Assembly: GCF_013167955.1 (NCBI RefSeq)
Contig: NZ_BLWF01000003.1
Location: 434,001 to 498,000, forward strand
Reading direction: 5' to 3'
DNA from: Thermanaeromonas sp. C210
GTDB lineage: Bacteria; Bacillota; DSM-521; Neomoorellales; Neomoorellaceae
Length of the DNA stretch: 64,000 nt
The notes beneath the pieces are model-generated. The model saw only the letters and a program-made list of their open reading frames with translations. It was not told the DNA's origin and searched no databases. Every line of letters begins with the position of its first letter. The stretch's first letter is position 1. Shown piece by piece: positions 49,333-60,518 of this stretch. The position numbers were made by a program, and so were the translations under genes.

Positions 49333-50589
49333 ATGGCATTAGAGGAAACCTCACCTAATCCTCTTCGGGCTGCTCAACAGGAAATACGTAAAGCAGTGCA
49401 GGCCTTGAACCTCGATCCTATCGTCGCCGACCTTTTGAGTGAGCCCCAGAGATTTGTGGAGGTTTCTTTTCCCGTGAAAATGGATGACGGGAGCACCAGG
49501 GTTTTTAAAGGTTATCGCTCGCAGCATAACAACGCCCTGGGGCCCTTCAAAGGTGGCATCAGGTTTCATCCTGAAGTGAATGCCGATGAAGTAAAGGCCC
49601 TGTCTATCTGGATGAGCTTAAAATGTGCTGTTCTCGGCCTCCCCCTGGGTGGGGGCAAAGGGGGCGTGAAATGCAATCCCAAAGAGCTGTCCCGCCGGGA
49701 GCTCGAGGAACTGAGCCGTGCCTATGTACGAAGCATAGCCCAGGTAATCGGGCCGGAGAAGGACGTTCCGGCCCCGGATGTCTACACCAACCCCCAGGTG
49801 ATGGCCTGGATGGCCGATGAGTTCAGTAGCCTCAACGGCTACAACACCTTCGGGGTAATTACCGGGAAGCCCCTGGAAATCGGGGGCTCGGCCGGACGCA
49901 GCGAGGCCACCGGCCGCGGTTGTGTTTTTGCCATTCGTGAGGCCTGCGCCCGGTTAAGTATTCCCCTGCAGAATGCTACCGTCGCCGTCCAGGGCTTCGG
50001 TAACGCCGGTTCCGTGGTAGCCAGGCTCCTCCACGAAATGGGGGCCAGAATTATCGCCGTGACCGACTCTACCGGCGGTGCCTACCGTTCCGAAGGCATA
50101 GATCCCATAAGTTTGCTGGAATTTAAGCAACAAACCGGCAGCGTCAAGGGAGCGCCGGGAACGACCCCTTTGAGCAACGAACAATTGTTTGCCCTAGAAT
50201 GTGACATAATTATCCCGGCCGCCCTGGAAAACGCAATTACGGCCGCCGTAGCCGAGGACATAAGAGCCCGGATAATTGCCGAAGCCGCCAACGGCCCGAC
50301 GACCCCGGAAGCCGATAAAATACTGGAGGACAAGGGCGTCCTTGTAATACCGGACATCCTGGCCAATGCCGGCGGGGTAACGGTATCTTACTTCGAATGG
50401 GTACAAAACTTGACTAATTACTACTGGACGGAAGAAGAGGTAAACCGCCGCCTTGAAGAAATGATGGTCCGCGCCTTCCAAGACGTTTACCAGATGCATT
50501 TGGACAAGAAAGTCTCCATGCGGGATGCGGCCTATATGGTGGCGGTAAACAGGATTGCCGGGGCCATGAAAGTACGTGGATGGGTGTAG
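49333..50589 (+). CDS. gdhA: NAD(P)-glutamate dehydrogenase
   Basis: 418 residues, hexameric GDH type. Glutamate-binding PLGGGKGGVKCNP with the catalytic lysine, YRSQHNNALGPFKGG, and the dinucleotide fold VQGFGNAGSVVARLLHEMGA are present. It interconverts glutamate with 2-oxoglutarate and ammonia and could support the alaT reaction. Cofactor preference cannot be read safely. ATG 49333 follows GGGAGGAG. An IclR-type regulator gene follows in the same direction. Confidence 0.95.
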   Translation: MALEETSPNPLRAAQQEIRKAVQALNLDPIVADLLSEPQRFVEVSFPVKMDDGSTRVFKGYRSQHNNALGPFKGGIRFHPEVNADEVKALSIWMSLKCAVLGLPLGGGKGGVKCNPKELSRRELEELSRAYVRSIAQVIGPEKDVPAPDVYTNPQVMAWMADEFSSLNGYNTFGVITGKPLEIGGSAGRSEATGRGCVFAIREACARLSIPLQNATVAVQGFGNAGSVVARLLHEMGARIIAVTDSTGGAYRSEGIDPISLLEFKQQTGSVKGAPGTTPLSNEQLFALECDIIIPAALENAITAAVAEDIRARIIAEAANGPTTPEADKILEDKGVLVIPDILANAGGVTVSYFEWVQNLTNYYWTEEEVNRRLEEMMVRAFQDVYQMHLDKKVSMRDAAYMVAVNRIAGAMKVRGWV

Positions 50590-50695
50590 TGAGGCGAGGC
50601 CAGGATAACGCCGGCCCACCGGGCGGCCGTCGGTGCGGTCAAGACCCGACGGCCGCCGAAGGCCGCCTCAAATATCGTAAAGGAGAGAAAAGAGG

Positions 50696-51508
50696 GTGCC
50701 GCAGGAGCAGAAGGGACGGGAAGGGAAGAATTCTAAAGTCCAGGGCGTTCAGGCCGTGGACCGGGCCTTGTCCATCCTGGAGGCCTTGGCCCGCGCCGAG
50801 GGCCCGGTCATGCTCTCGGCTTTAAGCTCCGAGATGGGGCTGCATATCAGCACCGTGCACCGGCTCCTTAATACCCTGGCCCGCAGGGGGTTTGTGGAAC
50901 AGGAACCCTACCAGGGCAGGTACCGCCTGGGCCTTAAGGTCTTTGAAATCGGAAATCGAGCCCTGTATTCCCTGGACATACGCGCCGTGGCCCGTCCTTA
51001 CCTGCGGGAGCTGGTGGAGGAATTCAACGAAACGGCCAACCTGGCCGTGCTGGACGGTTTTGAAGTGGTGTATATCGATCAAGTAGAATCCAGAAACATC
51101 ATTAAAATGCTGGCCCGCCCGGGCACCCGCACGCCTGCCTACTGCACAGGCACAGGCAAGGCACTGCTGGCATTCCTCAGTCCTTTCCAATGGGAAAGAT
51201 TTCTGGCCACTACCCCTTTAAGGGCCTTCACCCGGGCCACCATTACCGATCCTGAAGAGCTGGAGCAGGAGCTGGAAAAAATCAGAGAACAGGGTTTCGC
51301 CGTAGACAAGGGCGAGCTCGAGGAAGGAGTGCGATGTGTCGCCGCCCCCATCAAAAACCACGAACAAAGGGTAGTGGCTGCCCTGAGCGTTTCCGGCCCC
51401 AGCAGCCGTATAACAGATGAGCTGTTACACGGTAAACTGGCGGAAAGGGTTAAAACCGCCGCGGTTAATATTTCCCAGATCCTGGGGTCCGGCGAGGCCC
51501 GGCTGTAA
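50696..51508 (+). CDS. IclR-family transcriptional regulator
   Basis: 270 residues. An N-terminal winged helix (VDRALSILEALA, EMGLHISTVHRLLNTLARRGFVEQ) is followed by the IclR effector domain (FNETANLAVLDGFEVVYIDQV, PAYCTGTGKALLAF, VAAPIKNHEQRVVAALSVSGP). Neither ligand nor target is known; gdhA upstream and the activator gene downstream are candidates. GTG 50696 follows AAAGGAGAG. A terminator closes the unit. Confidence 0.9.
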   Translation: MPQEQKGREGKNSKVQGVQAVDRALSILEALARAEGPVMLSALSSEMGLHISTVHRLLNTLARRGFVEQEPYQGRYRLGLKVFEIGNRALYSLDIRAVARPYLRELVEEFNETANLAVLDGFEVVYIDQVESRNIIKMLARPGTRTPAYCTGTGKALLAFLSPFQWERFLATTPLRAFTRATITDPEELEQELEKIREQGFAVDKGELEEGVRCVAAPIKNHEQRVVAALSVSGPSSRITDELLHGKLAERVKTAAVNISQILGSGEARL

Positions 51509-51519
51509 CGGCCGGGCCT
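51495..51519 (+). terminator. Terminator of the IclR gene
   Basis: AGGCCCGGC, loop, GCCGGGCCT (9 bp, perfect) followed by TTTATATT; it overlaps the stop codon region. Confidence 0.8.
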
Positions 51520-51571
51520 TTTATATTATAATAAGTGGCGGCAGGGACTCTGGAGGTCTTGAGGCGGTGAT

Positions 51572-53287
51572 GTGCCTTTGGTGTCGGGTCGGGTAGACTT
51601 ACTGGCCGAGGTCCTGGCCTCCTTGCGCCACGGTTTTATAATGGTAGACGGCGCGGGCCGGGTTACCCGGATAAATCCCCAAGCTTTATCCTTCCTGGGT
51701 CTTCCGGAACAGGAGGTGAGGGGAAGAAGGTTAACGGAAATATTCCCCTCCACGCGCCTGGCCGAGGTTTTCACCACCGGACGCCCCCTGGTGGGTACCA
51801 CCTACCGCGGATTAAACCATACCCTGCGCATCAGCTATTTTCCCCTGGGGGTGAGTGACGGGGGAGCCGTCGTCGTTTTAGAACCGGTTGGTTCACCTTC
51901 ACCCTATGAAGAGGAACTGCCGTCCCGGCAAAACCTTATCGACCTCTATGAGGCCCTTCTGGCCGAACTGCCCCTGTGCCTGGTAGTAGTGGACAAGGAG
52001 GCCCGGGTGGTCTACTGCAACGATAACTACCGGGCCCTCCTGAAGTTGGATGACCGGCGGGTCGAGAACCGCCCGGTAAGGGAGATCATCCCCTTTACGC
52101 GGTTGCCCGAAGTCCTCTCTACGGGTCGGCCCTACCTCGATCCCGGCCTGGAGTTCGAGGGTCAAAAGCTCCTCGTGGCCGAGGTTCCCCTGAAAAAAAG
52201 CGGCGAAATCCTGGGGGGCGTGGGCCGGGTCGTATCCCAGGACACCGTAGCTTTAGAAAGTATAAGGGACTTTCGCCGCCGCTTTGAGATCCTGGAAAAT
52301 AAACTCCTTTTATACAAGCACGAGCTGGAGACGCTGCAACAGAACCGGTCACCCTTTGCCGAGATCATCGGTGTCAGCCCGGAGATGCAGCGTCTAAAAA
52401 GCCAGGCCGCCCGCATAGCCCGTGGGGAGGCCAACGTCTTGCTCCTGGGTGAGAGCGGCACCGGTAAAGAGCTCTTTGCGCGGGCCATTCACCTGGCGAG
52501 CCCCCGGGGTCGGGAACCCCTGGTCAAGATCAACTGTGCGGCCATTCCGGAAAACCTGCTGGAGGCCGAGCTTTTCGGATATGAGGAGGGAGCCTTCACC
52601 GGGGCCGTCCGGGGAGGTAAACCCGGTAAGTTCGAGCTGGCGGATGGAGGTACCATCTTCCTGGATGAGATCGGCGACCTCCCCCTGACTATGCAGCCCA
52701 AGCTGCTGCGCGTGCTCCAGGAACGCGCCTTTGAGCGGGTGGGCGGCAGGAAGACCATCAGGGTAAGCGTCCGGGTAATTGCCGCCACCAATAAGGACCT
52801 GCAGGCCCAGGTCAAAGAGGGCAAATTCCGCCTGGACCTCTATTACCGCCTGGCAGTCATAACCCTTCACATCCCGCCCCTGCGGGAGCGACCCGCCGAT
52901 ATCGAGCCTCTATGCGAAATGCTTATAGAGAGGTTTAACCGCCGCTACGGGCTAGCGGTCCGTTCCTTAAGCCCGGAGGTAAAGGAGTTCTTTAAAAAGT
53001 ACTCCTGGCCGGGGAACGTGCGGGAACTGGAGAACGTCCTGGAATACGCCTTTAACTTCCTGGAGCCGGAGGAAGAAGTCATTCGGCTGCACCACCTACC
53101 CCCCGGCTTCGGAGGGGAAGGCGGTCCCCACGGCCTGCAGCTTAAGGAAGCGGTGGCCCGGGCCGAGCAGGCGGCCATTAAGAAGGCCCTGCGGGCAGCA
53201 GGGGGCAATAAGCAGGAAGCGGCACGCCTGCTGGGCATACACCCTTCCGGCCTATACCAGAAACTAAAAAAATATAACCTGGAATGA
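51572..53287 (+). CDS. Sigma-54-dependent activator with two PAS domains
   Basis: 571 residues: PAS 1 (about 5-105), PAS 2 (about 125-230), then the AAA+ domain with Walker A GESGTGKELFARAIH, the sigma-54 contact loop GAFTGA intact, DEIGDLPL, and a Fis-type helix-turn-helix at the end (GGNKQEAARLLGIHPSGLYQKL). It activates RNA polymerase carrying sigma-54 in response to a PAS-sensed cue, perhaps redox or a small ligand. Directly downstream lie two molybdoenzyme units, and the second has a -24/-12 type promoter (55624-55637), so these are its likely targets. GTG 51572 is used. Confidence 0.92.
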   Translation: MPLVSGRVDLLAEVLASLRHGFIMVDGAGRVTRINPQALSFLGLPEQEVRGRRLTEIFPSTRLAEVFTTGRPLVGTTYRGLNHTLRISYFPLGVSDGGAVVVLEPVGSPSPYEEELPSRQNLIDLYEALLAELPLCLVVVDKEARVVYCNDNYRALLKLDDRRVENRPVREIIPFTRLPEVLSTGRPYLDPGLEFEGQKLLVAEVPLKKSGEILGGVGRVVSQDTVALESIRDFRRRFEILENKLLLYKHELETLQQNRSPFAEIIGVSPEMQRLKSQAARIARGEANVLLLGESGTGKELFARAIHLASPRGREPLVKINCAAIPENLLEAELFGYEEGAFTGAVRGGKPGKFELADGGTIFLDEIGDLPLTMQPKLLRVLQERAFERVGGRKTIRVSVRVIAATNKDLQAQVKEGKFRLDLYYRLAVITLHIPPLRERPADIEPLCEMLIERFNRRYGLAVRSLSPEVKEFFKKYSWPGNVRELENVLEYAFNFLEPEEEVIRLHHLPPGFGGEGGPHGLQLKEAVARAEQAAIKKALRAAGGNKQEAARLLGIHPSGLYQKLKKYNLE

Positions 53288-53331
53288 TAAACTCCCCTTA
53301 CCATTCCAGCAGAGCAAAGGGAAGAGAAACC

Positions 53332-55527
53332 ATGTCCGTGGAACTGCGCCGTACTCTGGAGAACTTGTTGGACCCCCATCAGGAACCGGCCGACCGATGG
53401 GTTTACACCACCTGCGGGTACTGCGGAACCGGTTGCGGCCTCTACCTCGGGGCAAGAGGGGGCCGGGCCGTGGCCGTTAGGCCCAACCCCTCATCCCCGG
53501 TAAACCGGGGCCGCCTGTGCCTGAAGGGCACCTATGAGTGGAAAACCCTGGAACATCCCGAACGAGCCGTGGTGCCCCTCCTGAGGGAAGGCGGCCAGCT
53601 GAGGCCCGCCACCTGGGAGGAGACCCAGCAGGTCTTTGTGGCCCGGGTGCGAGATGCCCTGCAGCAGTACGGGCCGGAAGCCGTGGGTATCTACCACGGC
53701 GGCCAGCTGACTATGGAGGAATATTATGCCCTCCACAAACTAGCCAAGGGTTTCTGGGGTACTCCCAACATCGATGCCAACACCCGCCTCTGCATGGCTT
53801 CTACCGTATCCGGCTACATCCGATCCTTCGGCGTCGATGCTCCGCCGGGCTGTTATGAAGACCTCGACGTAGCCCGGGTTATTTTCATCTTCGGCGCCAA
53901 CCCGGCCGAAATGCACCCCATGCTGTGGCAGCGGATCCTGCGCAACCGCCAGCATAGAGGCGCCAAAATCGTGGTAGCGGACCCGCGACGGACGCTGCCG
54001 GCGTCCGCGGCCGACCTGCACCTTCGGCTGCGCTGCGGCACCAACATCCCCCTGCTGTACGGAATCATACATGTTTTAATAAAAGAAGACTTAATCGACA
54101 AAGCCTTCATCGCCCGGTCCACCGCCGGATTCGACGAGCTGGCGGAAGCCGCCCGTCATTATCCCCCGGAGGTAGCTGGGGAGCTGACGGGCGTCCCGGC
54201 CGTGGACATCGTAACCGCAGCCCGCCTCTTCGGCCGGGCGGACACGGCGGTTACCGTCTTCTGCCAGGGTGTAAACCAGAGCGTGCAGCCGGTGGATACC
54301 GTTACCCTCATCAACTCCCTCCACCTCCTTACCGGCAAGATCGGCCGGCCGGGGTGTGCCCCCTTCTCCCTCACCGGCCAGGCCTCCGCCCTCAGTATGC
54401 GGGAAATAGGTGGAGCCGGCTGCCTGCCGGGCCTGCGCAACCCCCGCAATCCCCGGCACCGGCAGGAAGTGGCCCGCCACTGGGGTGTGGACGAAGGGAT
54501 CTTGCCCGCGGTCACCCGCGACATTAATACCATGCTGGAACTCATTGATTCCGGCCGGCTGCAGTTCTTATGGGTCATCGGCACTAATCCCGCCGTCTCC
54601 CTGTCCCACCAGGCATACGTCCGCAAGCAGCTGGAGCGCGTCTTCTTGGTGGTCCAGGACATCTTTTATCCCATGGAAACAGCCTCCTTGGCCGATATCT
54701 TCTTCCCGGCCGCCCAGTGGGGGGAGAAAACGGGCACCATCACCAACTCCGAACGCAGGGTAAACCTGGTCCGCAAGGCGGTAAACCCTCCGGGGCAGGC
54801 CCAGGACGACCTAACCATTATATGCCAGATCGCCCGGCGGATGGGGGCGGGAGAACTATTCCCCTGGCAGCACCCGGAAGAGGCTTTCGCCGAACTGCGG
54901 GAGTTAACCAGAGGCCGGCCCAACGACATGACCGGCATTACCTATGACCTCCTCGAGGCCCGCGGCGGCATCCAGTGGCCTTGTCCCGAAGGCAGCCCCC
55001 AGGGCAGCCCGCGCCTTTATACCAATGGGGTTTTCCCCACCGCGGCCGAAGATTCCCAGGACTATGGACCTTTCAACGAAAGCCCCGGTCGCGCCCGCCT
55101 CTGGGCCGTGACCTACCGGCCGCCGGCCCCCTTGCCGGATGAGGATTATCCCTTCTGGCTCAACACCGGCAGGGTTATCGAACATTATCATACCCGCACC
55201 AAGACCAAACGCATTCCGGAGTTGAACGCCCTCGTGCCCTATGCCTTTGTGGAAATCAACCCGGAGGATGCCCGGGCTTTACGCCTCGGCGAGGGAGACT
55301 GGGTCAAAGTCGTTTCCCCCCACGGGTGGGTTAAGGTGCGCGCCCGTATTACCGATGTGGTGGCCCGGGGAGAGGTCTTTTTGCCCTTTCACTTCGGGGA
55401 TTTAGACCCGGGAGAGGAAGCTCACCCCCAGGCGGCCAACCACCTTACAAGCCGGCTGACCGATCCCTGCTCACGCCAGCCCCTCACTAAAGTAGGGGCC
55501 TGCCGCCTGGAAAAGATCCCTCTCTAA
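53332..55527 (+). CDS. Cytoplasmic molybdopterin oxidoreductase, NasC/NapA-like (Cys-ligated)
   Basis: 731 residues, no Tat signal. [4Fe-4S] ligands C28-x2-C31-x3-C35 and C63 (CGYCGTGCGL, GRLCLKG); the Mo/W ligand is Cys154 in NTRLCMASTVSGY, the pattern of assimilatory and periplasmic nitrate reductases and of some Cys-type formate dehydrogenases. The C-terminal domain has the usual beta-barrel (LNTGRVIEHYHTRTKTKRIPEL, GDWVKVVSPHGWVKVRARIT). ATG 53332 with AGGGAAGAG is preferred to 53284. No partner subunit is adjacent except the exported enzyme block downstream. Nitrate reductase is my first guess, formate dehydrogenase-like the alternative. Confidence 0.82.
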   Translation: MSVELRRTLENLLDPHQEPADRWVYTTCGYCGTGCGLYLGARGGRAVAVRPNPSSPVNRGRLCLKGTYEWKTLEHPERAVVPLLREGGQLRPATWEETQQVFVARVRDALQQYGPEAVGIYHGGQLTMEEYYALHKLAKGFWGTPNIDANTRLCMASTVSGYIRSFGVDAPPGCYEDLDVARVIFIFGANPAEMHPMLWQRILRNRQHRGAKIVVADPRRTLPASAADLHLRLRCGTNIPLLYGIIHVLIKEDLIDKAFIARSTAGFDELAEAARHYPPEVAGELTGVPAVDIVTAARLFGRADTAVTVFCQGVNQSVQPVDTVTLINSLHLLTGKIGRPGCAPFSLTGQASALSMREIGGAGCLPGLRNPRNPRHRQEVARHWGVDEGILPAVTRDINTMLELIDSGRLQFLWVIGTNPAVSLSHQAYVRKQLERVFLVVQDIFYPMETASLADIFFPAAQWGEKTGTITNSERRVNLVRKAVNPPGQAQDDLTIICQIARRMGAGELFPWQHPEEAFAELRELTRGRPNDMTGITYDLLEARGGIQWPCPEGSPQGSPRLYTNGVFPTAAEDSQDYGPFNESPGRARLWAVTYRPPAPLPDEDYPFWLNTGRVIEHYHTRTKTKRIPELNALVPYAFVEINPEDARALRLGEGDWVKVVSPHGWVKVRARITDVVARGEVFLPFHFGDLDPGEEAHPQAANHLTSRLTDPCSRQPLTKVGACRLEKIPL

Positions 55528-55583
55528 TAATCTAGAAAGGTTTCTACGATTTTCGATACCCCGGCAGGATAAATCGGCGCCCG

Positions 55584-55612
55584 GAGCCCTGGAATCCTTA
55601 GTTCCAGGGCTC
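55584..55612 (+). terminator. Inverted repeat after the NasC-like gene
   Basis: GAGCCCTGGAA, 7-base loop, TTCCAGGGCTC (11 bp perfect), tail TTGGTGTTTC. Most likely a terminator; because it ends 12 bases before the -24 element it could also be an operator. Confidence 0.65.
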
Positions 55613-55623
55613 TTGGTGTTTCA

Positions 55624-55637
55624 GGCATAAATATTGC
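55624..55637 (+). promoter_or_regulatory. Candidate sigma-54 (-24/-12) promoter of the exported molybdoenzyme operon
   Basis: AGGCATA-N4-TTGCT: GG at 55624-55625 and GC at 55636-55637 are exactly 12 bases apart, as the consensus TGGCACG-N4-TTGCW demands. Start of transcription would be near 55649, giving a leader of about 90 bases with a short hairpin (AAGACT/AGTCTT) before the ribosome site. A gene for a sigma-54 activator lies two genes upstream. Confidence 0.6.
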
Positions 55638-55739
55638 TAGTACTTGCACAAGGGACCGGTCGCCGACGCGTGCAACAAAGGGTAAACACCACCCCGGGGA
55701 GGCACTAAGACTTTATCAGTCTTCGGCGGAGGTGAATTT

Positions 55740-58295
55740 ATGGAAAGAGGGAAGTTTAAGCTCAACCGGAGGCAGTTCTTAAAGGCTTCGGCCGCCGCGG
55801 CGGCCCTCGTAGGATCTACAGGTCAATACTTTATACCCCAGGTGCGGGGGGAGAATGGGGGGCAAAGGACCGTTAAATACGTGCGTTCCGTATGCTCCCC
55901 CAACTGCACCGCTTCCTGCGGGATTAAGGCCATGGTGGTGGATGGCCAGATAAAGGCCCTGTTTCCCACCGATGACTATCCCGAACCCGAATATGGCCCC
56001 CGCGGCTGCTTGAGGGGCCTCAGCTACATCAATATGATCTACGGTCCGGAACGCCTGAAAAAACCCTTGATCAGGACGGGCGAGCGGGGCAAGGGAGAGT
56101 TCAAAGAAGTCACCTGGGAGGAAGCCCTGGACTTCGCCGCGGGCCGTCTCAAAGAGATTGCGGCCAAGTACGGTCCCGAATCCGTCTGCTTCAGCTTCCA
56201 GGTGGGGGGCACCGGCCACGTCCAAAAGGGAGCCTGGATCGCCCTCTCCACCCTGGCCGGCTGGAATCTCATCCACCCCTACGACAAAAACGGGGACCTG
56301 CCCATGTTCTGGCCCCAAACCTTCGGCGTGCAGTCGGAGGAACTCGAACCCCTGGAGTGGCTTAACTCAAGGTATATAGCCGTCTTCGGGTCCAACCTCA
56401 TGGTTACCCGCCTTATGGATTCCGATCTATTAATCGAAGCCCGCAACAGGGGCGCCAAGCTGGTCGTTTTCGACCCCAATTATTCTCCCACGGCGGCCAA
56501 GGCCGACGAATGGATCCAGTTGAAGGCCAGCAGCGACGCTGCCCTGGCCCTCGGCATGGCCCGGGTGCTCCAAGAGGAGAAGCTGTATGACGAAGCCTTC
56601 ATCAAGACCTTCACCGACCTGCCCCTCCTGGTACGCCTGGATAACATGAACCGCCTCCGGGCCGCCGAGGTCAGGGGACTGGACAGACCGGCGGACGTCC
56701 CCGCCTACCGGGAGGCCTTCGTAGCCTACAACGGACGGCCGTTGGTAGTACATCCCGAAAAAATGGAAATGCCTCCCGATGTCCTCCTGGAGGGGGAAAT
56801 CGAAGTGGAATTGAAGAGCGGGGAAAGGGTGAAGGCCAAGCCGGTCTTCCAGCTGCTAAAGGAACACCTGCAAGCTTACACCCCGGACTATGTGGAACAA
56901 GAAACCGGCGTTAACGGCGACACCGTCGTCCGCCTGGCCCGGGAAATGGCCACCACGCGGCCCCTGCACGTGATCTATGGAGCCAGCAACTACCAGTGGT
57001 ACCACGGGGACTTAAAGGGCAGGGCCCTGGCTCTCTTGCCCGTACTCACCGGCAACATCGGCCGTCCCGGCGCAGGGATTTCCACCTACGCTGGCCAGTA
57101 CAAGATCCGCTTTGACGTCAAGGCCTGGTGGTTCCCCCGGCCGCCCCGGTGGCTCCCCTGGCTTTACATCCTCCACGGCCCCACGCCCGGCATGAAGGCG
57201 CCGTGGCCGTCCCAGGGCGTCAAGGCCCTCATCTTCGGCTGGGGAAATCCCTTCGACCAGCACAACATGGCCGGCCGCCTGCGCCAGATGGCCGAGAAGG
57301 GCGAACTGGAGTTTATCATGGGGATGGACAACCAGATGACCACCAGCTGTCTATACAGCGACGTGGTCCTGCCGGTGGCTAGCTGGTATGAAAAGGTCGA
57401 GCTCACCACCACCCCCCTCCATCCCTATATGCAGCTCCAGCAGCCGGCCATTGCGCCCCTCTACGAGTCCAGGTCGGAGCTCTGGATCGCCCGGGAGATA
57501 GCCCGGAGGCTCAATCCCGAATTCGAAAAGCACTTCTTCCCCGGCTTGGACGAAAACGCCGCAGCCGAAAAGGCCATTGAGCTGCTCCTGGAAACGGGCG
57601 GTCCGCCGGTGGCCGGCATAACCCTGGAACAACTGAAGCAGGGTCCCGTCCGCCTTAAATCCGAAGTCCCGGGGGACCGGCAGATACCTTTCTATGAACA
57701 GGTCCACTTTAAGAGGCCTTTCCCGCCCCGGAGCCGTCCAGCGGCCCTGGAAGCCACGGCCCAGTTTGTTAAAAGCGGCAGGATAGAGTTTTACAAAGAA
57801 GAGGACACCTTTAAAACCCTGGGCGAAACCCTGCCGGTTCACAAACCGCCCTTTGAAGAGAGCGAGTACGCCCTGAATCCGGCGGTTAAGGATAAATACA
57901 CCTTTGTTTTCCTTACCCGCAACTCCCTCTACCGCGTTCACGCCAATTTTTCCAACAACGTGTGGCTGAACGAACTCCAGGACAACCGGCCCAAGATCTT
58001 CCTGAACCCCGAAGACGCCGCGGCCAAGGGGATCGAACAAGGGGATCTCGTGGAAGCCTACAACGACCGGGGCAGGGTGAGAGGATACGCCGTTCTGGAC
58101 CCCGGTATGGCCCGCAATATAGTAATCTTCGAGCAGGGCTGGTGGAGCCGTTATCTGGCCGGGGACTCCTATAACTCCCTGACCTATCCCTTCATTAAGC
58201 CCACCCACGAGGTCTACTTCGTACCGGGAATCTGGGCCCCCAACACCGCCTGGAACGAAGCCCTTTGCGATGTCCGAAAGGTGGGTGAATCCTAA
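55740..58295 (+). CDS. Tat-exported type II molybdoenzyme catalytic subunit (NarG-like, Asp-ligated)
   Basis: 851 residues. A twin-arginine signal (NRRQFLKASAAAAAL, R10-R11) directs it outside the membrane. The FS0 cluster ligands are C52-x3-C56-x3-C60 and C90. The segment NGDLPMFWPQTFGVQ aligns with NarG CDLPPASPxTWGEQ, which makes Asp186 the Mo ligand, the mark of the type II DMSO reductase family (nitrate, selenate, chlorate reductases, DMS and ethylbenzene dehydrogenases). Downstream FGSNLMVTRLMDSD and PNYSPTAAKADEW also match NarG. It is shorter than NarG. The substrate is unknown; an oxyanion or sulfur compound is plausible. ATG 55740 after GGCGGAGGT. Confidence 0.85.
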   Translation: MERGKFKLNRRQFLKASAAAAALVGSTGQYFIPQVRGENGGQRTVKYVRSVCSPNCTASCGIKAMVVDGQIKALFPTDDYPEPEYGPRGCLRGLSYINMIYGPERLKKPLIRTGERGKGEFKEVTWEEALDFAAGRLKEIAAKYGPESVCFSFQVGGTGHVQKGAWIALSTLAGWNLIHPYDKNGDLPMFWPQTFGVQSEELEPLEWLNSRYIAVFGSNLMVTRLMDSDLLIEARNRGAKLVVFDPNYSPTAAKADEWIQLKASSDAALALGMARVLQEEKLYDEAFIKTFTDLPLLVRLDNMNRLRAAEVRGLDRPADVPAYREAFVAYNGRPLVVHPEKMEMPPDVLLEGEIEVELKSGERVKAKPVFQLLKEHLQAYTPDYVEQETGVNGDTVVRLAREMATTRPLHVIYGASNYQWYHGDLKGRALALLPVLTGNIGRPGAGISTYAGQYKIRFDVKAWWFPRPPRWLPWLYILHGPTPGMKAPWPSQGVKALIFGWGNPFDQHNMAGRLRQMAEKGELEFIMGMDNQMTTSCLYSDVVLPVASWYEKVELTTTPLHPYMQLQQPAIAPLYESRSELWIAREIARRLNPEFEKHFFPGLDENAAAEKAIELLLETGGPPVAGITLEQLKQGPVRLKSEVPGDRQIPFYEQVHFKRPFPPRSRPAALEATAQFVKSGRIEFYKEEDTFKTLGETLPVHKPPFEESEYALNPAVKDKYTFVFLTRNSLYRVHANFSNNVWLNELQDNRPKIFLNPEDAAAKGIEQGDLVEAYNDRGRVRGYAVLDPGMARNIVIFEQGWWSRYLAGDSYNSLTYPFIKPTHEVYFVPGIWAPNTAWNEALCDVRKVGES

Positions 58296-58981
58296 TGAAA
58301 CTGGGAATGGTGGTGGACCTCGACCGCTGCATCGGCTGCCGTACCTGTATGGTGGTCTGCAAAGAACATAATGCCCAGCCGCCGGGCACCTGGTGGAACC
58401 GGGTCTTCACCCCCGGCAGTCCCGAGCACCAGGTTGCGGCCGGGAAAAACGGGCGAATTCAGATGTACTTCTTGCCCGTCTCCTGCCAGCACTGCGAAAA
58501 CCCTCCCTGCGAAAAGGTGTGCCCGGTAGGGGCCACCTACACCGACGAGCGGGGACTGGTACTCGTAGACTATCGGCGTTGTATAGGCTGCCGGTACTGT
58601 ATGGCCGCCTGCCCCTACGGTGTCCGGCAGTTTAACTGGGAAGACCCCCGAGAAGCGAAGACCAGGGCAGGATACAGTCCCGGCTACAGTTACGGCTACC
58701 CCTTTGACCACTACGACAAAACCGGACGCCTGGTTTACACCCCCGACCGCCCCAGGGGCATCACAGAAAAATGTACCTTTTGTATCCAGTACGTGGATCA
58801 GGGGGAGAACCCCATCTGCGTCCAGGCCTGCCCGGCAAGGGCCCGTACCTTCGGAGACCTGGAGGACCCCAACTCGGAAATAAGCCGCCTGGTAAGGGAG
58901 CGACCCGCGTTGCGGCTCCGGGAAGAACTGGGCACTTCGCCCAAGGTCTACTACCTGCTGCCCGCCGGGTCGCGGCAATAG
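58295..58981 (+). CDS. Four-cluster ferredoxin subunit (DmsB/NrfC/NarH-like)
   Basis: 228 residues with sixteen cysteines in four motifs: CIGCRTCMVVCKEHN, CQHCENPPCEKVCPVG, CIGCRYCMAACPYG and CTFCIQ...CVQACPARA. All ligands are cysteine, so four [4Fe-4S] clusters are expected, unlike NarH, which has a [3Fe-4S]. It passes electrons between the NrfD anchor and the catalytic subunit and is probably carried out with it by the Tat system. Its ATG shares a base with the upstream stop. Confidence 0.92.
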   Translation: MKLGMVVDLDRCIGCRTCMVVCKEHNAQPPGTWWNRVFTPGSPEHQVAAGKNGRIQMYFLPVSCQHCENPPCEKVCPVGATYTDERGLVLVDYRRCIGCRYCMAACPYGVRQFNWEDPREAKTRAGYSPGYSYGYPFDHYDKTGRLVYTPDRPRGITEKCTFCIQYVDQGENPICVQACPARARTFGDLEDPNSEISRLVRERPALRLREELGTSPKVYYLLPAGSRQ

Positions 58982-58993
58982 GAGGGGAGAAAT

Positions 58994-60250
58994 ATGAGAA
59001 GGGAAAACAGCGTCCTTATCGCGGCCATCTTCCTTTTGGTAGTTAGCCTGGGAGCCTGGGGTTATCAGCTTGCCCGGGGGTTAATCGTTACCCATATGCG
59101 CAATCCCTTTAGCTGGGGCCTCTATATAGCCACCTTTGCCTTCTTCGTAGGCATTGCCGCCGGCGGCATGATCATTTCCTCCTCGGTCTACCTCTTCAAT
59201 GTCCGGCACCTAAAGCCCTTTTGCCGCATATCCTCTTTATGCGCCTTTGCCAGTATTCTGGCCGCCGGAGCCATCATCCTCCCCGACCTGGGACGGGTGG
59301 AGCGGATCTATAACCTGCTCCTGCACCCCAACTTCCGCTCTCCGTTGATATGGGACTTAATAGTAGTCGGCACTTATTTACTGCTGACCTTCCTGAGCAT
59401 CTATTTCCAGCTCCTGCCCGATTGGAAAAAAGAAGGACACGGCCTTCTAGTCGCCTGGACCCAGAGGTTATCCCTTGATCAAGTAGAAGAGATTTCCCGG
59501 AAATGGTCTCGGAGGATATCCCTGGTGGGTCTTCCGGTGGCCGTCCTCATTCATACGGTGACCGCCTGGATTTTTGCCACCCAGGCCTCCCGCAACTGGT
59601 GGAACTCGGCCCTGCTGGCGCCGGATTTCATAGCCAAGGCCGTGGCCTCGGGAACAGGCCTGGTGCTGGTGGTTTCCCTCCTGGTGGTAGGGAGGGAGGG
59701 CTTCGACCGGCACCGGGCAGCCTTTCACAGCCTGGCCCACATCACGGCCGGCGCCCTGATGGTCCATTTCTTCTTTACGGCCAACGAACTGCTGGTGCGC
59801 TGGTGGTGGGGTTCACCCGAGGAGCTAAGTCCCCTTCACCTCCTTTTCGGCCGGTACGGGTGGCTGTATTTCCTGGAACTGGCCCTTCCGGCCTTCACCA
59901 TGGTATATTTCCTCACGGCCCGCGGGAAGGCAACCCGGACCTCCCTTCTCCTGGGGAGCCTCGTGGTCTTCCCCGGCATCTTAGCCAACCGCCTTCTGTT
60001 AATGCCCGCCGCCTACAACCTCTTCCCCCTGCACCTATCCCTGCCGGGAGTGGAGGTGGAAGGGTGGAACTACCCCATCGCCCTGGGAGAATTCAGGCCG
60101 GACGGGACCATATTTGTCGACTTCTGGTCGTACGTCCCTTCTGCCGTGGAAGTGGCCGTTACCCTTTTACCCTTCGGCCTGGTCCTGCTGACCATCTCCC
60201 TCATGCTGCGGTGGGGCAACTTCTGGCCCGAAGGCAAAGCCTCAACCTAA
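58994..60250 (+). CDS. NrfD/PsrC-type membrane quinone-interacting subunit
   Basis: 418 residues with about ten hydrophobic helices. NrfD-family features: YIATFAFFVGIAAGGMIISS near the N-terminus, GRVERIYNLLLHPNFRSPLIWD and later FTANELLVRW. There are no haem-ligand His pairs of NarI type. It anchors the outward-facing molybdoenzyme and exchanges electrons with menaquinone, whose biosynthesis genes occur at 11.9-14.9 kb. ATG 58994 follows AGGAGGGGAG. Terminator hairpins follow. Confidence 0.92.
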   Translation: MRRENSVLIAAIFLLVVSLGAWGYQLARGLIVTHMRNPFSWGLYIATFAFFVGIAAGGMIISSSVYLFNVRHLKPFCRISSLCAFASILAAGAIILPDLGRVERIYNLLLHPNFRSPLIWDLIVVGTYLLLTFLSIYFQLLPDWKKEGHGLLVAWTQRLSLDQVEEISRKWSRRISLVGLPVAVLIHTVTAWIFATQASRNWWNSALLAPDFIAKAVASGTGLVLVVSLLVVGREGFDRHRAAFHSLAHITAGALMVHFFFTANELLVRWWWGSPEELSPLHLLFGRYGWLYFLELALPAFTMVYFLTARGKATRTSLLLGSLVVFPGILANRLLLMPAAYNLFPLHLSLPGVEVEGWNYPIALGEFRPDGTIFVDFWSYVPSAVEVAVTLLPFGLVLLTISLMLRWGNFWPEGKAST

Positions 60251-60272
60251 CCGCCTGTCGACCTTAAGCTCC

Positions 60273-60309
60273 GGCCGGGCTGCGCCTTCTTCGGGCCGCC
60301 CGGCCTTTT
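60273..60309 (+). terminator. Terminator of the exported molybdoenzyme operon
   Basis: GGCCGGGC, 17-base loop, GCCCGGCC, TTTTG. Confidence 0.8.
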
Positions 60310-60379
60310 GTAAGAATGCGAATTCGCCGCCCACCAGATCCGCTAATAAGCTTTTCTTCCAATTTGCTTTTGTTCTAGG

Positions 60380-60398
60380 GGGGGTAAAACCCCCTTTT
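60380..60398 (+). terminator. Second terminator-like hairpin before hflX
   Basis: GGGGG, loop TAAAA, CCCCC, TTTT. Downstream TATAAT at 60465-60470 is the likely -10 of hflX; no good -35 is visible. Confidence 0.6.
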
Positions 60399-60518
60399 GT
60401 CGTTTATAAAACAACAATACGGGGGTCCTGGAAGGAAACGCCCAAGATTTGTCTAACCTGCATTTATAATATAGATGTACCGATTCTTTTTGGACCTAAA
60501 CCCCGAGGAGGAGCCGGC

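Follow-up and report, generated by a model that had tools for sequence, protein, structure and literature searches.

An operon for an exported molybdoenzyme in Thermanaeromonas sp. C210 is preceded by a sequence that resembles a -24/-12 promoter. The question raised by this locus was whether that sequence is a working sigma-54 promoter and, if so, which activator would serve it. The whole stretch of DNA analysed, referred to here as the window, comprised 64,000 nucleotides. On the comparisons set out below, it was considered very likely that positions 55623-55638 act as a sigma-54 promoter for the three-gene operon and that this promoter is activated by the neighbouring PAS-AAA+-Fis protein via two palindromes.

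The motif and its chance level

55623..55638, + strand: -24/-12 (sigma-54) promoter element AGGCATA-N4-TTGCT (exact letters, conservation)

The first-pass annotation had described AGGCATA-N4-TTGCT with GG and GC in a 12-base register, and this description was exact at 55623-55638: A55623 is followed by GG at 55624-55625, GC lies at 55636-55637 and the element ends with T55638. The gap that holds the motif was also of the length claimed, 212 bases (55528-55739). The motif matched 11 of the 12 positions of TGGCAYR-N4-TTGCW, the first base being A where the consensus has T.

There was one match to GGCAYR-N4-TTGCW in the window, compared with 0.22 expected by chance, and at least one match occurred in 20 of 100 shuffles of the window. 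When up to two mismatches to TGGCAYR-N4-TTGCW were allowed, 21 sites were found and 22.1 were expected. These counts place the motif letters by themselves near chance level, so that alone they prove little and are weak as evidence; the case for the predicted promoter is made by conservation and context, beyond the letters alone.

The expected 0.22 matches and the off-consensus first base are what can be said for a chance match, with transcription of the operon due instead to a sigma-70-type promoter that escaped recognition, or to read-through out of the upstream gene. This explanation was judged very improbable. A search of 55400-55800 gave no match to a sigma-70-like promoter, a weak argument against such a promoter since only 0.3 matches were expected in shuffles. 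The evidence on a chance match and on read-through is given with the conservation and the hairpin, respectively.

By the usual geometry, which we take to apply here and which sets the start 12 bases past the C of the -12 GC, transcription would start at 55649 (+). The predicted 5' leader would include the following block.

55642..55653, + strand: ACTTGCACAAGG, block in the predicted 5' leader (resembles a block in same-family gaps, by eye)

Blocks like ACTTTCACAAGG were seen by eye at a variable distance past the -12 element in the same-family gaps (window 55642-55653; L062-L072), and in several relatives such a block was followed by a short open frame starting ATGACC. The block is possibly a leader element or peptide. 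An Rfam scan of 50000-60500 returned no family at E values up to 1, and no known RNA family therefore accounts for the leader.

The operon downstream of the motif

55740..58295, + strand: Tat-signal-bearing type II molybdopterin oxidoreductase, catalytic subunit, the target (domain, PDB and motif comparisons)
58295..58981, + strand: 4Fe-4S subunit of the target operon (profile matches)
58994..60250, + strand: NrfD-like membrane subunit of the target operon (profile matches)

A Tat signal was found in the catalytic subunit, whose gene is adjoined by the Fe-S and NrfD partner genes. The nearest PDB entry for the catalytic subunit was perchlorate reductase PcrA (4ydd, E 3.2e-102), followed by NarG. 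The YDKNGDLP sequence of the target aligned with YDWYGDHP of PcrA and YDWYCDLP of NarG, with the type II Asp kept. At the position of PcrA residue 461, a Trp, the target has Tyr and NarG has Glu. The Asp in YDKNGDLP is presumably the molybdenum ligand of type II enzymes. The TIGR03479 cut-off for the DMSO reductase II alpha subunit was not reached (442.8 versus 984.75 bits).

Homologues on Archaeoglobus, Ferroglobus and Geoglobus contigs had 55-56% identity. Together with the Fe-S and NrfD partners of the target, they indicate a resemblance to the AF0174-0176 group, for which (per)chlorate or nitrate reductase activity is putative. In motif searches, nine of the 11 same-family loci likewise had the GQYKIR of the target, and the four loci from Archaeoglobus, Ferroglobus and Geoglobus had GQFKIR; no motif of this type was matched in L069, L072-L075, L147 or L148. 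The operon is carried by Moorella sulfitireducens (L081), and perchlorate reduction is reported for M. glycerini and M. sulfitireducens in PMC9964509.

Sigma-54 machinery in the genome

Absence of rpoN had been named as a ground on which the promoter would fall. An rpoN gene was found in the genome (PF04552, E 9.3e-59), and its product contains SRRTVAKYR, which we take to be the RpoN box. Genome-wide, GGCAYR-N4-TTGCW matched 19 times, compared with 10 times for the reversed control; part of the 19 matches fall within reading frames. Thirteen PF00158 matches were present, ten of which were strong sigma-54 activator genes; three weak matches (E 1e-7 to 1e-13) were excluded from this set. A same-strand GGCAYR-N4-TTGCW site was located no more than 2.8 kb past the AAA+ domain in 8/10 of the strong genes, compared with about 0.1 expected by our own arithmetic, and in 7/9 when the case in the window was omitted. 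At the seven other activator-linked sites the first motif position is T, whereas in the window it is A. The strong activator genes without a same-strand site were C2:174685 and C3:352212, the latter having a nearby match on the opposite strand.

Two more motifs matching all 12 positions, at G000:C3:339404 and C3:330856, have no strong activator gene within 10 kb. The G000:C3:339404 motif lies 250 bases before another molybdopterin enzyme gene.

The activator gene and the NapA-like gene

51572..53287, + strand: sigma-54 activator, PAS-PAS-AAA+(GAFTGA)-HTH_8 (Fis) (Pfam domains, GAFTGA motif read)
53284..55527, + strand: molybdopterin enzyme with NapA/NasC-like Cys-Met motif and no Tat-signal match (profiles, alignment)

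As claimed previously, the only sigma-54 activator gene in the window lies 2.3 kb upstream: it is the sole one of the 13 PF00158 matches that falls inside the window, and it ends 2.3 kb before the motif. The 12 Pfam families matched at E values up to 0.001 included no receiver domain for the activator, which has PAS domains instead. The activator gene is preceded by a gene for an IclR-type regulator (window 50696-51508). At L069 and L072 the same place is taken by a relative with 76-77% identity, and in the other fetched loci no relative of more than 120 bits was found.

The start of the NapA-like gene is ambiguous, being either the ATG at 53284, which overlaps the stop codon of the activator gene, or 53332, 48 bases further on. 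The RLCMAS sequence of its product aligned with RLCMAS of NapA and RLCHAP of FdhF. Cys-Met was present in 18/18 loci that have this gene; the pattern search matched 15 of the 18 (window, L062-L072, L147, L148 and L176), and L149 (RLCMAS), L150 and L151 (both RLCMSG) were read directly. Cys-Met, rather than Cys/Sec-His, at the active site is taken by us to denote a NapA/NasC-like enzyme. The best PDB match was NapA (2jim, E 3.6e-145), in a near-tie with FdhF (7qv7, E 6e-145). The product shares the active-site motif with NapA and NasC but differs from them in that no Tat signal was matched and in that it scored below both NCBIfam cut-offs (NapA, 428 versus 904 bits; NasC, 480.7 versus 1100 bits). 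It also fell below the formate dehydrogenase alpha cut-off (548 versus 666.25 bits), and its identification as a formate dehydrogenase was dropped because of the Cys-Met motif.

Conservation of the promoter

Orthologues of the exported enzyme were sought in 101 genomes. Full-length orthologues were found in 11 other same-family genomes (78-85% identity) and in three genomes of other families (G068, G062 and G099; 67-72% identity). The order activator, NapA-like gene, gap, exported enzyme, Fe-S subunit and NrfD subunit was kept in the 11 same-family relatives; at L068 (G016) the contig stops within the NapA-like gene and the activator is at the end of another contig, and at L070 the contig stops within the NrfD gene. 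G129 and G130, from two other families and found via the activator, have the same gene order; the searches for relatives in their orders spanned 3 genomes each. There were therefore 14 loci with this order, namely the window, the 11 same-family loci and the two from other families.

Fragments of the exported enzyme with 72-81% identity were seen at G002:C86:5258-5737 and G018:C6:16245-17359, with internal stop codons in 2/3 pieces. These fragments suggest decay of the operon in the two relatives.

Lack of conservation in relatives that keep the operon was the other ground on which the promoter had been left open to rejection. GGCAYR-N4-TTGCW was present in the gap of all 14 same-order loci, and it was the sole coding-strand match in each of the 14 as fetched. 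Eleven of them match the full consensus (12/12); the other three, namely the window, L063 and L065, have A or C as first base. The eight fixed bases, GGCA and TTGC, were invariant in all 12 aligned same-family gaps, and the gap of the window is 46-60% identical to those of its same-family relatives. In the same 12-gap alignment, the invariant ungapped columns numbered 0/17 between the palindromes and the hairpin, 7/40 in the hairpin and 5/42 in the leader. Recurrence of the same motif in the same gap at 14/14 loci argues against a chance match, with the qualification that the 12 same-family loci share descent and are not 12 independent events.

At G068, G062 and G099 the enzyme operon has no activator and middle gene beside it, and the 700 bases preceding the aligned enzyme start contained no match of at least 10/12 in any of them; G068 had a 9/12 match. 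Neither of the two grounds named for rejection of the promoter applied. Enzyme homologues at 26-56% identity and L017-L031 were outside the scope of the promoter and activator comparison.

Paired palindromes and the choice of activator

55523..55536, + strand: candidate activator site UAS1, TCTAATAATCTAGA (exact TCTA-N6-TAGA; overlaps the stop codon of the upstream gene)
55543..55556, + strand: candidate activator site UAS2, TCTACGATTTTCGA (1 mismatch; 20 bp from UAS1)

Two palindromes that had no place in the first-pass annotation are likely activator sites, judging from their recurrence. Each of the 14 loci has an exact TCTA-N6-TAGA that starts 98-145 bases upstream of where the -24 element begins, and in all 14 a second copy with 0-2 mismatches follows 20-21 bp after the first. 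The palindrome block had 21 invariant columns among 39 ungapped columns in the 12 same-family gaps. Ten of the 18 family genomes contained a pair at a 21-base register with no more than 1 mismatch, once in each and always at this locus, compared with 0 for the reversed control; this pattern misses the window and G013, where the register is 20. When an exact palindrome was required 60-90 bases from a promoter, 13 of the 66 genomes chosen gave matches (16 rows; reversed control, 0); this composite pattern misses G004, G007 and G129, where the exact palindromes are farther off. Thirteen of the 16 rows were at this operon, in 11 genomes, and three were elsewhere. By itself, TTCTA-N6-TAGA matched 11 times genome-wide and its reversed pattern 10 times; a lone palindrome is uninformative, and pair, position and promoter are needed jointly. 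Helical phasing of the palindrome shifts (about -99, -122 and -144) was dropped as an explanation, three classes being too few.

At G026 and G286 the row lies behind an open frame whose product by eye resembles a PAS protein, and these sites may therefore be promoters of other activators. At L190 (G014:C1:1090984-1091099, minus strand), in a same-family genome, a similar palindrome pair and promoter were seen 194 bases before a gene that by eye is ECF sigma factor-like; in the 14 kb fetched around this second G014 site there were no relatives of the eight window proteins queried.

It was considered highly unlikely that the promoter is real but served by another activator of the genome. Such an arrangement would be in keeping with the ten strong sigma-54 activator genes, with the predicted nature of the neighbour's binding, with the NapA-like gene that separates activator and promoter, and with L176, in which the pair is present (helix HVSGLY) yet is followed by neither such a promoter nor a target. 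Against this, the motif and the neighbouring activator co-occur in the other loci compared: 17/18 loci with the activator and NapA-like pair have a promoter after the NapA-like gene (for L068, the second gene of the pair only). A counterpoint is that in G068 an activator-like match lies about 6 kb upstream of the motif-less enzyme operon.

The recognition helices also argue for the neighbouring activator. HPSGLY was read in 13/13 activators from loci with this target (the window, ten same-family loci, L147 and L148, with G016 excluded) and is paired with TCTA-N6-TAGA. In L149, L150 and L151 the activator and NapA-like pair is followed by a 12/12 sigma-54 motif, but the downstream genes are different. 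Those of L149 are Rieske, cytochrome b, NapA (1136.7 bits; cut-off, 904) and ferredoxin-type genes. Those of L150 are NapC/NirT-type and cytochrome c552 genes, nrfHA-like by Pfam although below the NCBIfam NrfA cut-off (364.5 versus 595 bits), with Rieske and cytochrome b genes farther on. L151 is from the same genus as L150 and about 90% identical to it across the shared stretch. The helix is HRSAFY in L149 and QRSAFY in L150 and L151. No exact TCTA-N6-TAGA was found at these three loci; instead, TGTCC-N8-GGACA lies 79-115 bases before the promoter in each, with two further copies elsewhere in each of L150 and L151. The RSAFY side of this link between helix and palindrome comprises 3 activators from two genera and is confounded with descent.

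The hairpin before the motif

55583..55613, + strand: intrinsic-terminator-like hairpin (most likely the end of the upstream transcript)

The 11-bp inverted repeat noted earlier was present at 55584-55612 (GAGCCCTGGAA/TTCCAGGGCTC). Its suggested role as a promoter part was unsupported: the hairpin behaves like a terminator, and its place is shifted in L147 and L148. All 12 same-family gaps have such a hairpin directly 5' of the -24 element, with the T-run mostly kept and a weak fold in L072, and its letters vary among these gaps while the pairing persists. In L148, a hairpin with a T-run lies right behind the NapA-like gene, ahead of the palindromes, and in L147 one lies between the palindromes and the promoter. 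Because the position shifts between loci, a terminator fits better than a part of the promoter, and most likely the repeat serves to end transcription of the upstream genes.

Read-through into the operon is favoured by the weak T-run of the window hairpin and by the number of terminator-like sites in 55400-55800 (2 versus 0.8 expected in shuffles), a count that is weak by itself; the recurrence of the hairpin before the -24 element in the same-family gaps counts against it. That the inverted repeat is itself an operator or activator site was also judged very improbable: the hairpin does abut the -24 element in the 12 same-family gaps, but its letters are poorly conserved (7/40 columns), pairing and, mostly, the T-run are what is kept, and in L148 and L147 a hairpin lies before the palindromes and between palindromes and promoter, respectively, as would be expected of a terminator.

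Discussion

The circuit that we propose was built on features read from the sequence, namely the motif, its conservation, the activator domains, rpoN, the paired palindromes and the terminator-like hairpin; from these we infer binding, looping, the signal, the substrate and the transcription of the three genes as one. Sigma-54 RNA polymerase would remain in a closed complex at 55623-55638. The PAS-AAA+-Fis activator, whose gene lies 2.3 kb upstream, would bind 55523-55536 and 55543-55556, form a ring, loop the DNA across the terminator of the upstream genes and open the promoter with ATP once its PAS domains received a signal. Nitrate, (per)chlorate or another oxidised anion is probably linked to this signal. 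The promoter would then drive 55740-60250, comprising the molybdopterin oxidoreductase, iron-sulfur and NrfD genes, as one operon.

The first-pass annotation was correct about the sequence and most likely about what it means. A sigma-54 promoter with a nearby activator is ordinary in kind. In the Clostridiales sigma-54 regulons described by Nie et al. (2019, PMC6615313), the activators are of the Fis type, most targets lie beside the activator gene and there are several UAS copies and the consensus TTGGCATNNNNNTTGCT; the proposed circuit is alike in its Fis-type activator adjacent to the target, its two candidate UAS copies and this consensus. It differs in its palindrome, which is TCTA-N6-TAGA here and TGT-N10-12-ACA for fifteen groups in the main text of that paper, and the distance from the first candidate UAS to the -24 element is 98-145 bp here compared with mostly 100-250 bp there. 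Moorella is not mentioned in that main text, which was the scope of the comparison, the motifs of other groups, MopR included, being in a figure and a supplement outside it. In a wider sigma-54 study (PMC12316311), nitrate reductases made up 42% of 176 sigma-54-controlled members of an anaerobic-dehydrogenase COG; its main text likewise has no mention of Moorella. Sigma-54 control of this operon did not appear among the literature matches listed, judged by titles and abstract openings. Within the literature searched, three elements are new as far as the searches show: the target, the palindrome proposed as enhancer, and the recurrence of the activator together with a NapA-like enzyme.

For the perchlorate reductase of Azospira, an RpoN-dependent regulator, PcrR, has been proposed, with control by PcrP, PcrS and PcrR (PMC5845722, PMC4623255). 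Proposed RpoN-dependent activation of a type II molybdoenzyme, with involvement of a PAS protein, is shared by the two systems. Azospira, however, has a histidine kinase and a response regulator, whereas here a single protein combines PAS, AAA+ and Fis domains and gave no match to a receiver domain. According to PMC5845722, it is not yet known which signals induce the pcr operon in Azospira.

AF0174-AF0176 of Archaeoglobus fulgidus is a putative (per)chlorate/nitrate reductase (PMC6299022, PMC8322695). It has the molybdopterin, Fe-S and membrane subunits in common with the operon of the window, a likeness drawn via homologues on archaeal contigs and not from the A. fulgidus sequence itself. 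AF0174-AF0176 is archaeal, whereas the operon of the window is bacterial with a predicted sigma-54 promoter, and the substrate of its enzyme is putative. To our knowledge, archaea have no sigma-54.

The PAS activator and the NapA-like enzyme without a Tat signal may form a transferable sensing pair, a tentative idea that we consider rather unlikely to hold. The enzyme would turn over or bind an anion (nitrate, nitrite or a chlorine oxyanion) and so set the activator, and the pair would have been plugged before different respiratory operons via a sigma-54 promoter. Helix and palindrome would then change together, with HPSGLY and TCTA-N6-TAGA before AF0174-type genes and HRSAFY or QRSAFY and TGTCC-N8-GGACA before nap or nrf genes.

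The locus would provide a complete and testable control circuit, consisting of sigma factor, activator, two enhancer sites, promoter and target, for a respiratory molybdoenzyme in Moorella-type thermophiles. With its single activator, the circuit could be simpler to rebuild than the pcr control of Azospira. The presence of the activator and NapA-like pair before nap, nrf and AF0174-type genes suggests that one class of regulator may serve oxyanion respiration.
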